Assembly: GCF_000380335.1 (NCBI RefSeq)
Contig: NC_021149.1
Coordinates: 434,001-498,000 of the forward strand
Reading direction: 5' to 3'
DNA: 64,000 nucleotides
From: Azotobacter vinelandii CA
Lineage (GTDB): Bacteria > Pseudomonadota > Gammaproteobacteria > Pseudomonadales > Pseudomonadaceae
The notes below the pieces were generated by a model. That model was not told the DNA's origin and did not search any database. It saw only the letters and a list, made by a program, of their open reading frames with translations. Shown one piece after another: positions 10,723 to 64,000 of the stretch. Numbering within the stretch: the first letter of the stretch is position 1; every line of letters starts with the position of its first letter. The translations under genes were made by a program, and so were the position numbers.

Positions 10723-10740
10723 TATAGGCAAAGGCTTACA
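10723..10740 (+). promoter_or_regulatory. GacA-type upstream activating sequence candidate
   Basis: TATAGG-N6-CTTACA resembles the GacA box TGTAAG-N6-CTTACA: the right half is exact and the left half matches at four of six positions. Its centre is about 65 bases before the predicted start of the adjacent GGA-rich RNA, the distance typical of rsm genes. A -10 candidate is TAGTCT at 10785-10790. Confidence 0.5.
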
Positions 10741-10796
10741 TGGTGTGATGGCGATCGCCACTGTTTAGTCGATGGGGGGATGCCTAGTCTATTGCT

Positions 10797-11140
10797 CAAG
10801 GGCGTCGCGCAGGAAGCGCATCGAAAAACACGGACGGCGTCGCAGGTTCCGCCAGGATGGCGGATGATAGGGAGATCGCGCAGGAGGCGCATCGACCGGC
10901 ATGGATGGGGTCGGGAATTCACCGGGAGGGTGAGGCCGCAGGGATGGTTGGCGCAGGATGCATTGGGGAACTCAGGGACGATCGCCAGGATGGCATTGTT
11001 CAGGGACGATGCGCGCAGGATGCGCCATGTGACTCATGGACGATTCAGGGACGATCGGGGATGTTCCGCCAGGATGGCGGAGGTAGTCAGGGATGTCAGA
11101 ATCAGTCTGCAAGACCCCGCTTTGCGGGGTTTTCTTTTTT
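10797..11140 (+). ncRNA. GGA-rich RsmA/CsrA-sequestering sRNA (RsmY/Z or CsrB type)
   Basis: About 340 nt from a predicted start near 10797 to an intrinsic terminator. I count about 22 GGA triplets. At least six are in AGGA five-base loops on GC stems: 10807-10819, 10849-10863, 10878-10890, 10984-10994, 11013-11025 and 11066-11080. The second and last hairpins share a 17-base identical sequence. This is the signature of RNAs that titrate RsmA/CsrA. No protein frame with a ribosome binding site runs through it. The neighbours, a LysR gene and a class III aminotransferase-like gene, recall the rsmY locus of P. aeruginosa, but this RNA is about three times the length of RsmY and close to E. coli CsrB. 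The boundaries are predicted. Confidence 0.75.
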
Positions 11141-11166: not shown

Positions 11167-12066
11167 TCAGCCGCGGACCTCATGGAGGCCGGGCATTCCC
11201 TCCAGCAGCGAGCGCAGCAGGTTCACCATGCCCTGCTGGCGCTGCGCATCGCGGTAGACCAGTCCCACCTTCAGGGGGATGCGCGGTTCGCTGAGCGGTT
11301 TCCACAACAGACCCGGATGGCTGTGCGGCGGCCGCGAACAGCCCGGCAGCACCGTGGCCAGGGTCGTGTGCGGCAGGCTGTCGAGGATGCTGTTCATGTG
11401 GTTCAGCTCGGCCTGTACCTGCGGACGCCGGCCGAGCATGCCGAGCTGCTCCTGCCAGATCTGCCGCACGCGGAATTCCTCGCCGAACAGCAGCATCGGC
11501 AACTCCGCCGCCTGGGCCAGGGAAACCTTCTTGAAGTCCTTGAGCGGATGCTTTTCCGGGATCACCAGCTGCAATTCATCCTCGTACAACGGCAGGCTGT
11601 GCAGCCCGGGCTGACGCGGCGGCAGAAAACCGATGCCGATATCCAGGGTACCGGCCAGCAGGCGTCGTTCGATATCGGTGCCGGACAATTCGTAGAGCTG
11701 TACCACCAGGTGCGGCTGGGCCTGGCGCAGACGCTCCAGCAGCGGCGGCACCAGGCTGGCGCTGACCGTTTGTAGCACACCGACCGCCAGGCTGCGTGCC
11801 GCCTGCCCACGGAAGGCGCGCAGTGCGTCGCGGGCGCGCTCCAGGCCTTCCAGTAGCGGCACCGCATGGGTGTACAGGGTCTGCGCGGCGAGGGTCGGCA
11901 GCAGGCGCTTGCCGGTGCGCTGAAACAGGCTGACGTCGAGGTCCGACTCGAGGTGGCGGATCTGCTGCGAGAGCGCTGGCTGCGATAGGCTCAGGCGCTC
12001 TGCGGCGCGCCTTACGTGGCCTTCCTCGTACAGGGCGACGAAATAACGCAACTGACGGAAATCCAT
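11167..12066 (-). CDS. LysR-family transcriptional regulator
   Basis: A 299-residue regulator. The winged helix-turn-helix is in residues 1-60 (AERLSLSQPALSQQIRHLE); a two-lobed periplasmic-binding-protein-like effector domain follows from about residue 90. The sequence is closest in feel to the CynR/CysL-type subfamily, but the effector cannot be deduced. It is transcribed away from the aminotransferase-like gene at 12287; the 220-base spacer would hold its operator and LysR proteins often control the divergent neighbour. Its 3' end faces the Rsm-type RNA. Confidence 0.9.
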   Translation of the reverse strand: MDFRQLRYFVALYEEGHVRRAAERLSLSQPALSQQIRHLESDLDVSLFQRTGKRLLPTLAAQTLYTHAVPLLEGLERARDALRAFRGQAARSLAVGVLQTVSASLVPPLLERLRQAQPHLVVQLYELSGTDIERRLLAGTLDIGIGFLPPRQPGLHSLPLYEDELQLVIPEKHPLKDFKKVSLAQAAELPMLLFGEEFRVRQIWQEQLGMLGRRPQVQAELNHMNSILDSLPHTTLATVLPGCSRPPHSHPGLLWKPLSEPRIPLKVGLVYRDAQRQQGMVNLLRSLLEGMPGLHEVRG

Positions 12067-17746: not shown

Positions 17747-18418
17747 ATGTCCGACCGCGCCGAAACGCCGTCTGTCCGGGAGCCGTTCAACGCCATCGAG
17801 GTCCGCATTCTGGGGTGCCTGATCGAGAAGCAGGCGACCACGCCGGAGAGCTACCCGCTGACCCTCAATGCCCTGGTGCTGGCCTGCAACCAGAAAAGCA
17901 GCCGCGAGCCGCTGATGAACCTCGCTTCCGGCCAGGTCGGCCAGGGGTTGCGCCAACTGGAGGGACGCTCCCTGGTGGAGCTGGTCATGGGCAGCCGGGC
18001 GGACCGCTGGGAGCATCGCCTCGACAAGGCCCTGCAACTCACGCCGCCGCAACTGTCGCTGCTCGGCCTGCTGTTGCTGCGCGGTCCGCAGACCGTCAAC
18101 GAACTGCTGACCCGCAGCGCCCGCCTGTACGCTTTCGATGACGGCGAGGAACTGCAGCACCAACTGGAGCGGCTGATCGGTCGCGAACTTGTCTGCCGCT
18201 TGCCGCGCCAGCCGGGGCAACGCGAGGAGCGCTACATGCATCGGTTGGGTAGCGCGGAGGATCTGGAGGAACTGCTGGCCGCACGCGCGACCCAGGCGGC
18301 CGTCAACGAGGGGGCGGCGGGTGGCCGGATCGAGGCGCTGGAAGCGCGCATCGCGGAGCTGGAGACGCGGTTGGCGAAGCTGGAGGAGGATCTGGGGAGC
18401 GGCGAGCCGCGGGGGTGA
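17747..18418 (+). CDS. YceH/DUF480 family protein
   Basis: A 223-residue protein of UPF0502 (YceH). The N-terminal part has the typical [20 protein letters not shown] and SREPLMNL segments of a tandem winged-helix fold; the C-terminal about 40 residues are a coiled coil of Glu, Leu, Ala and Arg heptads. The paired winged helices suggest DNA binding, but no function is established that I know of. Divergent from the lipid-transport operon. Confidence 0.9.
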
Positions 18419-18444
18419 GCCGGGTTTTCCGGAAAGGGGGATCG

Positions 18445-18818
18445 CTCGAAGCACAGAGGGGAGCCTGAGCTCCCCTCGAAATCGACTTTGTGCTTTGTTC
18501 TTCTTGTGCTCGATCTGTTGTTGTTTTTGTCGACCGCCACTCTGAAGAAAGTGCTTCAGTCGGCCCCAGCCGGGGCCAAGAGCAAACGTATTTCTTTGAT
18601 CGCCGATATCGCGATGATCACCAAGTGATCCAACCAGTCCGGGCGCTACCTCGAGGTAGTTTTATTGTTCTCTGTCCGGCTGCGGGGCCTAGACCCCAGG
18701 AGCGCGAATCCTCTCCAAAAAAATCAGTTTGCGCCGTCTCTGCCGTGCTTGTTCTTGTTATGTCAGAGTCGTTTCGTATTGTTGTTCTTGAGATACCGTT
18801 TTTTATTTTTGTTGTGTG
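18445..18818 (-). ncRNA. CrcZ/CrcY-type Crc/Hfq-sequestering sRNA
   Basis: About 370 nt on the minus strand. The predicted 5' end GCACACAACAAAAATAAAA resembles the start of CrcZ as I remember it. The RNA carries at least five AANAANAA motifs, the A-rich sites bound by Hfq/Crc: near 18785 (AAGAACAA), 18757 (AACAAGAA), 18666 (AACAATAA), 18525 (AACAACAA) and 18500 (AAGAAGAA). It is preceded by a sigma-54 promoter and a CbrB-like palindrome, as in crcZ genes. GC content drops sharply against both neighbours. It is not next to cbrAB, so it is more likely a CrcY-type paralogue than CrcZ itself. The 3' end is at a strong hairpin with a weak T-tract. Confidence 0.8.
18456..18477 (-). terminator. Terminator hairpin of the Crc-type RNA
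   Basis: A perfect nine-base-pair stem (18456-18464 with 18469-18477) and a four-base loop. On the minus strand it is followed by TGTGCTT, a poor U-tract. It is also 37 bases after the yceH stop and might serve that gene on the plus strand. Confidence 0.55.
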
Positions 18819-63159: not shown

Positions 63160-64000
63160 TTACAGCGCCTCGCGGCTCGGCTGGCCGTCGACCAGGCGCA
63201 GGATGCCCAGCGGGTTGGCGTTCTTCAGCGCGTCCGGCAGCAGTTCGTCCGGGTAGTTCTGGTAGCACAGCGGGCGCAGGAAGCGCTCGATCGCCAGCGT
63301 GCCCACCGAGCTGCCGCGGGCGTCCGAGGTGGCCGGGTAAGGGCCGCCGTGGACCATCGCATCGCACACCTCCACCCCGGTCGGGTAGCCGTTGACCAAC
63401 AGGCGCCCGGCCTTCTGCTCGAGCACCGGCACCAGGGACGCGAAGGCGGACAGGTCCGCCGGCTCGGCGATCAGGGTGGCGGTGAGCTGGCCGTGCAGGG
63501 CCGGCAGGGCGCGGACCAGTTCGGCCTGGTCGGCGACCTCGACGACCACGGTGGTCGGGCCGAAGACCTCTTCCTGCAGCAGTTCGTCGCCGTCCAGCAG
63601 CAGGGCGACGTCGGCCTGGAACAGTTGCGGCCGGGCCTGCCGGCCTTCCTGCTTCTGGCCGGCCAGGTGCCTGACCTTCGGGTGGGCGTGCAGGGCGGCG
63701 ATGCCCTGCTCGTAGCTCTTCAGGGTGCCGGCGTTGAGCATGGTCTGCGGGCCCTGTTCGGCCATGGCGGCGACGAAGACCTCCAGGAAGGCGGAGAACT
63801 GCGCCGAGCGCAGGCCGAGGATCAGCCCGGGGTTGGTGCAGAACTGCCCGCAGCCCATCGTCACCGAGGCGGTCAGCTCCTTGGCGATCTGCTCGCCGCG
63901 TTGCTCGAGCGCCTCGGGCAGCAGCAGCACCGGGTTGATGCTCGACATCTCGGCGAACACCGGGATCGGCTGCGCGCGGGCGGCGGCCATGTCGCAGAGG
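63160..64000 (-). CDS. Aldehyde dehydrogenase, ketoglutarate-semialdehyde type (3' part)
   Basis: 280 codons of the C-terminal part; the gene runs off the right end of the window. The catalytic Cys is in MGCGQFCTNPGL, and a conserved EEVFGPTTVVVEV motif follows. The GCGQFC context and NPGL are typical of alpha-ketoglutarate semialdehyde dehydrogenases, which oxidise the semialdehyde to 2-oxoglutarate in the catabolism of glucarate, galactarate, arabinose or hydroxyproline. It is on the same strand as, and upstream of, the OprD porin, separated by about 290 bases with palindromes, so uptake and catabolism genes may be linked. Confidence 0.88.
   Translation of the reverse strand, partial: LCDMAAARAQPIPVFAEMSSINPVLLLPEALEQRGEQIAKELTASVTMGCGQFCTNPGLILGLRSAQFSAFLEVFVAAMAEQGPQTMLNAGTLKSYEQGIAALHAHPKVRHLAGQKQEGRQARPQLFQADVALLLDGDELLQEEVFGPTTVVVEVADQAELVRALPALHGQLTATLIAEPADLSAFASLVPVLEQKAGRLLVNGYPTGVEVCDAMVHGGPYPATSDARGSSVGTLAIERFLRPLCYQNYPDELLPDALKNANPLGILRLVDGQPSREAL

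Follow-up and report, generated by a model that had tools for sequence, protein, structure and literature searches.

The small RNA at positions 10797 to 11140 of the window (the whole 64,000-nucleotide stretch of the Azotobacter vinelandii CA genome that was analyzed, contig NC_021149.1, positions 434,001 to 498,000) is taken to be rsmY of A. vinelandii, the same gene as the RsmY of the literature, since this genome has a single RsmY locus. It lies on the plus strand from 10797 to 11139; the part up to and including the terminator stem is ~337 nt, a T run follows, and the 5' end is placed by homology. Based on sequence comparisons, we consider it probable (at roughly 0.85) that rsmY of Azotobacter encodes a GacA-activated transcript made of four tandem descendants of the RsmY body and functions as a sponge for several RsmA dimers; the ~337-nt transcript length, the number of dimers held, and the increase in sponge capacity per transcript that this growth would bring are features that we infer. 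The usual size of RsmY is ~120 nt, which is typical of the family and not defining, and the A. vinelandii RNA exceeds it.

RsmY was the best Rfam family for this RNA. The RsmY model (RF00195) matches positions 11002 to 11133, the 3' third, with 62.8 bits, which is above the gathering score of 57. A second match, at 10798 to 10878, has 36.2 bits and is below the gathering score, and a search of the organism's own genome gives a third match at 10869 to 10949 (28 bits). The gathering score is exceeded at one locus of the genome only, 10797 to 11140. A second RsmY elsewhere in the genome was considered and rejected, since outside the rsmY locus there is no match at an E value of 0.001 and the next best has 16.7 bits (E = 0.2). 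Both ends of the RNA are homologous to ordinary RsmY; for example, two other genomes (G052 and G281) match the 5' and 3' ends of the query. The initial annotation had suggested an expanded RsmY, and this reading is supported by the Rfam matches, by both ends, by the promoter box, and by the tandem units that lie between them. A search of a phage collection gave no match, and there was no sign of a phage element.

The features that surround the RNA are also of the RsmY type. A GacA box (upstream activating sequence), TATAGGCAAAGGCTTACA, is present on the plus strand at 10723 to 10740, with 2 mismatches to TGTAAG-N6-CTTACA, the motif known as the GacA box; the boxes of the other three Azotobacter genomes have 1 mismatch each. 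Counted from this box, the first hairpin starts within ~3 nt of its position in ordinary RsmY, as read by eye. A putative -10-like element, TAGTCT (10785 to 10790, plus strand), has TATTCT or TACTCT as its aligned counterpart in the other three Azotobacter; a sigma-70 scan found no promoter match. At the 3' end there is a single intrinsic terminator (11111 to 11133, plus strand), printed by the terminator scan as two overlapping stems; its hairpin has 10 pairs, and a T run continues to 11140. The clean terminator described earlier is thus confirmed. Ordinary RsmY (RF00195) shares with Azotobacter RsmY the GacA box and its spacing, a 5' start with the gcgcAGGAAgcgc hairpin, a second AGGA hairpin, a 3' end of the form GGATGTCAG...AGTCTG plus a terminator, and, in many genomes, a LysR neighbor.

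That neighbor, a LysR-family regulator gene at 11167 to 12066 on the minus strand, is convergent with the RNA and is a frequent neighbor of rsmY. The other neighbors in the window are genes for a class III aminotransferase and a SpoU-type methylase. The LysR and aminotransferase genes adjoin the RNA, as expected from the rsmY-like neighborhood that had been recognized from the sequence. The closest named LysR loci are those of Azotobacter beijerinckii (95%) and Azotobacter chroococcum (93%). The LysR query fetched 61 loci, of which the 46 from Pseudomonadaceae were examined and the 15 from outside this family were left out; in 38 of the 46, a GacA box with ≤1 mismatch lies no more than 2.5 kb past the end of the LysR gene.

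One alternative is that the locus consists of two adjacent RsmY genes, RsmY1 and RsmY2, which yield separate short RNAs by transcription or processing. Table 1 of a review (PMC7366521) gives "RsmY1-2" for A. vinelandii, and there are two separate Rfam RsmY matches within the locus, with none outside it reaching an E value of 0.001. However, inside the RNA no GacA-like box was found at up to 3 mismatches, and the terminator scan found no terminator before 11106. The other A. vinelandii papers, in their available portions, count one RsmY, and what Rfam gives as two matches may be a single long RNA whose two ends were each counted. For these reasons we regard a pair of genes as quite improbable. 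A single long RNA would also bear on why the review gives "RsmY1-2" for this organism.

The plus strand of 10797 to 11140 contains 22 GGA triplets, and the reverse strand contains 2. This agrees exactly with the earlier estimate of roughly 22 GGA in about 340 nt and is above the value in every one of 2,000 dinucleotide shuffles (mean, 14.0; maximum, 21). The number of AGGA sites, 7, is high compared with the same shuffles (mean, 2.6), yet within their range (maximum, 8). GGA-holding loops with at least 4 closing pairs, G-U pairs allowed, number 12, compared with a shuffle mean of 3.6 and a maximum of 10, and 0 of 2,000 shuffles reach 12. Folding of the whole region, which had been proposed as a check, gives an energy with a z score of -2.1; 2 of 100 shuffles are equally or more stable. 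In the partition function, the eight hairpin-loop GGAs are unpaired with a probability of ≥0.91, and 13 of the 22 GGAs have an unpaired probability of >0.5. In a GGA-density scan of the window (344-nt stretches, every 4 bases, both strands, threshold of 16 GGA), stretches with at least 16 GGA occur in two places: the rsmY locus and a plus-strand stretch from ~18093. The latter reaches the end of the CrcZ small RNA, which is encoded on the opposite strand (18416 to 18815, minus strand, 325.6 bits).

Eight hairpins can be drawn in the RNA, two per unit, all on the plus strand and all with a loop GGA that is kept in 4 of 4 Azotobacter species. Three short hairpins keep all of their pairs in all four species: hairpin 1a (gcgc-AGGAA-gcgc, 10807 to 10819), hairpin 2a (gcgc-AGGAG-gcgc, 10878 to 10890), and hairpin 4a (gcgc-AGGAT-gcgc, 11013 to 11025). 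In hairpins 1b, 2b, 3a, 3b, and 4b, some positions are unpaired in at least one of the four. Hairpins 1b (10848 to 10864) and 4b (11065 to 11081) are both tccgcc-AGGAT-ggcgga; the six pairs of 1b are kept in 2 of 4 species and are broken, as drawn, in A. beijerinckii and A. chroococcum, and all six pairs of 4b are kept in 3 of 4. Hairpin 2b (ttcacc-GGGAG-ggtgag, 10918 to 10934) has, in A. beijerinckii, an AGGAT loop and one A-U pair replaced by G-C. The third pair is weaker in A. vinelandii, where hairpin 3a (gcgc-AGGAT-gcat, 10951 to 10963) has 2 unbroken pairs and hairpin 3b (gcc-AGGAT-ggc, 10982 to 10996) has 3. Among the hairpins with 5-nt GGA loops, 4 or 6 pairs close five AGGA loops, 3 pairs close the AGGA loop at 10982, and 2 unbroken pairs close the one at 10951; the GGGA loop is closed by 6 pairs. 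The initial annotation had counted at least six AGGA hairpins with five-base loops, which holds only if the 3-pair hairpin at 10982 is included.

Standard pairs occupy 93.8% of the named-pair cells in the four species, compared with 36 to 54% when partners are slid, a gap that is partly expected because one of these same sequences served to draw the structure. Pair covariation among the four Azotobacter sequences does not attain significance, being matched by 69 of 500 shuffles. The consensus fold of the four sequences has some long-range pairs in place of local hairpins, and so homology and the partition function are the grounds on which the local hairpins are assigned.

The tandem organization was defined with a covariance model built from 30 of 77 ordinary RsmY bodies, with the divergent genera g5, g6, and g18 left out. 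In 4 kb, the four best matches to this RsmY-body model are consecutive within the RNA, and the next match, outside it, has 7.4 bits. Unit M1 (10800 to 10870, plus strand) corresponds to the 5' part of ordinary RsmY, with a model match at 10797 to 10878 of 40.1 bits, and unit M4 (11006 to 11104, plus strand) corresponds to the 3' part, with a match at 11001 to 11109 of 43.5 bits. Between them are two internal copies on the same strand: M2 (10871 to 10943; match at 10879 to 10946, 15.0 bits), which has 79% identity to M1 over 38 nt, and M3 (10944 to 11005; match at 10966 to 10995, 10.0 bits), the most eroded of the four, which has 73% identity to M4 over 44 nt. The M2 and M3 matches are weak, with E values of 0.0058 and 0.15 in 4 kb and of 0.12 and 3 over 82 kb. 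Over 82 kb, two unrelated places in the window, at 63274 and 41864, outscore M3, with 11.3 and 10.4 bits versus 10.0 bits. Four model matches in a row are also present in A. beijerinckii and A. chroococcum, and only two are listed in the remaining Azotobacter genome, G003.

Other comparisons also relate the units to one another. When units are aligned in pairs within A. vinelandii, 5 of 6 pairs beat shuffled sequences (≤2 of 1,000 shuffles reach the score); the alignment of M2 with M3 is no better than shuffles (495 of 1,000). Direct repeats fall into families whose copies start 71 and 135 nt apart in the first, 62 nt apart in the second, and 217 nt apart in the third. Among the four Azotobacter species, the same-numbered unit is the best cross-species match in 47 of 48 comparisons. 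Same-numbered units have a median identity across species of 0.89 and a minimum of 0.77 (24 pairs), while different-numbered units have a median of 0.75 and a maximum of 0.87 (96 pairs). Because the units match in register across the genus, the array and the duplications that produced it are older than the split of the four Azotobacter species.

Growth by internal duplication had been proposed earlier from 17 identical bases shared by 10848 to 10864 and 11065 to 11081. This identity is real, but it is the second hairpin of RsmY, which has nearly the same form in ordinary one-unit RsmY genes, and so it is not by itself proof of a recent duplication. The tandem units are better evidence for the same proposal. 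A fuller history, to which we give about even odds, is that a two-hairpin RsmY became a CsrB-like multivalent sponge through approximately three rounds of tandem duplication inside one RNA gene before the Azotobacter species separated, so that the sponge has been scaled in two ways, by more genes (rsmZ) and by more sites per RNA (rsmY).

The unevenness of the units raises the possibility that the working RsmY is the 3' third alone (11002 to 11133) and that the upstream units are decaying relics with little RsmA binding, which would be compatible with the identification of the gene as rsmY. In its favor, the 3' unit has the highest score, the scores of M2 and M3 are low, and in A. vinelandii the 3a and 3b hairpins are weak. 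On the other hand, the promoter box and the 5' end are conserved on the 5' side of all the units in 4 of 4 species, and the eight loop GGAs and a total of 20 to 22 GGAs are kept in all four. The cross-species identity of same-numbered units, which nowhere falls below 0.77, argues in the same direction. We therefore think that relic units are unlikely.

Among the genomes measured, the four-unit form is found in Azotobacter only. The distance from the GacA box to the RNA end is 386 to 393 nt, with 20 to 22 GGA, in 4 of 4 Azotobacter genomes (393 nt in A. vinelandii). In other Pseudomonadaceae it is 168 to 232 nt (median, 178), with 5 to 8 GGA, in the 93 of 96 genomes in which a box was found, and in all 30 of the 30 top-scoring RsmY loci, 27 of them from further genomes and 3 from genomes already counted, it is 175 to 181 nt. 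This survey examined 127 of 141 genomes with an RsmY match (100 plus 27), of which 124 gave a length (4 Azotobacter and 120 others); three genomes (G143, G090, and G013) were left out of the length range because they have no box at ≤2 mismatches. The RNA start was assumed to be 57 nt after the box end, which sets the length of ordinary RsmY at ~110 to 175 nt (168 to 232 minus 57). Ordinary RsmY is thus a one-unit RNA of ~110 to 175 nt with 5 to 8 GGA, whereas Azotobacter RsmY is a four-unit RNA of ~337 nt with 20 to 22 GGA.

When 398 Pseudomonadaceae genomes were searched at the DNA level, 276 had matches. Among the matches listed, in order of score, a full-length match (1 to 343) occurs in the four Azotobacter genomes only, and matches outside Azotobacter cover the 3' end, with G052 and G281 also covering the 5' end. 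No intermediate with two or three units was found among the genomes examined or among the DNA matches listed. One Azotobacter genome (G001) had appeared from its Rfam coordinates to carry a short form; this was rejected, since its RNA is full length. In genus g6 (e.g., loci L125, L204, and L207) and part of g16 (e.g., L165 and L168), the box is ~220 to 232 nt from the RNA end, compared with the usual ~178 nt, with no more GGA. Either the promoter is spaced farther away in these genomes or the RNA is another kind of Rsm RNA.

The four Azotobacter sequences also bear on whether the region could be coding sequence or a GGA-rich stretch that arose by chance. In A. vinelandii the 343 nt can be read through without a stop in two of three frames, and in Azotobacter G003 in one. 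However, all three frames contain stops in A. beijerinckii and A. chroococcum, and the RNA lengths in the four genomes are 343, 339, 343, and 336 nt, with gaps that are not in threes; a coding sequence was rejected on these grounds. The GGA number and the hairpins stand above the shuffles, which argues against chance, and we consider either origin to have a negligible probability compared with that of a structured RsmY RNA.

The size and GGA number of Azotobacter RsmY are like those of the CsrB RNA of enterobacteria. Escherichia coli CsrB is about 370 nt long. Like Azotobacter RsmY, it has 22 GGA (PMC7652899) and is a multi-hairpin protein sponge. The CsrB-like size and number of sites that had been noted from the sequence are therefore borne out, with 22 GGA in both RNAs, and this does not imply common descent. 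An RNA that descends from CsrB would account for the size and for a GGA number equal to that of E. coli CsrB (PMC7652899). However, RsmY is the Rfam family that fits best; no CsrB match up to an E value of 10 is among those listed, with three weaker same-clan overlaps standing outside the listing; and the neighbor, the 5' and 3' ends, and the promoter spacing are all of the RsmY type. Descent from CsrB is thus very improbable. CsrB also differs in promoter context and lineage. Because the best family match and the context are those of RsmY, we take the presence of ~20 GGA in an RNA of 300 to 400 nt as convergence, a likeness of work and not of descent, judged from these features. Azotobacter RsmY is, from its sequence, most likely a high-capacity RsmA sponge that has converged with CsrB in size and in number of GGA sites.

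A closer parallel in mode of growth is the tandem rsmX-1/rsmX-2 arrangement of Pseudomonas brassicacearum, in which Rsm capacity was also raised by tandem duplication (PMC7911923). These are separate genes of 110 to 111 nt (PMC7911923), whereas the copies in Azotobacter RsmY are inside one RNA. In the available part of the same paper, added Rsm sponge capacity is discussed as whole-gene duplication, and a link between the number of GGA sites and RNA stability is hypothesized for P. brassicacearum. By that rule, Azotobacter RsmY could be long-lived.

What is reported for A. vinelandii provides the setting in which such an RNA would act. Expression of rsmY depends on GacA; RsmZ1-7 and RsmY are induced through GacA in stationary phase; RsmA represses the algD, phbR, and arpR mRNAs; and RsmA binding has been demonstrated for RsmZ1 and RsmZ2 (PMC12923157, PMC4824345, from the portions available). 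The genome has one CsrA-family gene, and its RsmA is identical to the RsmA of A. vinelandii DJ as given in PMC12889724. Of three published A. vinelandii primers, the reverse primer for rsmZ1 and an rsmA primer match the genome exactly; the rsmZ1 forward primer (PMC4824345) does not, which speaks against identity of the strain. The species is almost certainly A. vinelandii. We propose that GacA would activate the rsmY promoter on entry into stationary phase and that the resulting transcript of ~337 nt would begin like ordinary RsmY, run through the four tandem descendants of its two-hairpin body, and end in an ordinary RsmY terminator. The GGA-loop hairpins and single-stranded GGAs would let one RsmY molecule hold several RsmA dimers, and RsmA held in this way would free algD, phbR, arpR, and other RsmA-repressed mRNAs. 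One CsrA dimer bridges two sites that are 10 to 63 nt apart, according to the available text of PMC7652899, and the loop-to-loop spacing within the units of Azotobacter RsmY, 32 to 54 nt, fits this range. If RsmY is indeed a multivalent sponge built by duplication, no other single transcript in the cell would take up as much RsmA, and its binding might be cooperative and its life longer.

The rsmY gene of A. vinelandii is an already studied gene, described in the literature as GacA dependent. One paper is devoted to A. vinelandii RsmY (Lopez-Pliego 2020). Apart from that paper, a literature search on RsmY length or duplication in Azotobacter found no statement of length or of repeats in the accessible parts of the sources. 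It may therefore be that neither the four-unit form nor its confinement to Azotobacter among the 124 genomes measured has been remarked on, or they may already be described by Lopez-Pliego. In either case, Azotobacter and its close relatives offer one-unit and four-unit versions of the same RNA, under the same kind of promoter, that can be compared. With this comparison one could test whether the number of sites is all that separates long sponges such as CsrB from short ones or whether affinity, cooperativity, and stability differ as well. Within A. vinelandii, an expanded RsmY bears on the control of alginate, polyhydroxybutyrate (PHB), and cyst lipids.

The RsmZ RNAs of A. vinelandii belong to the same genome and the same GacA-Rsm system as RsmY. 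There are 8 matches to RF00166 over its cutoff, and in the papers the set is given as RsmZ1-7 or RsmZ1-8. Unlike the expanded RsmY, the RsmZ matches are of ordinary size (128 to 140 nt) and are at separate loci. Four of the eight are within 37 kb (C1:385522-422379), ~22 to 59 kb from rsmY at C1:444797, which is a local cluster of Rsm RNAs. A possible ninth RsmZ-like locus (L086) is present at C1:4253268-4253409, where RF00166 scores 27.6 bits, below the cutoff of 44. It has a GacA-like box ~60 nt upstream and no terminator that is evident by eye, and it may be a decayed copy.
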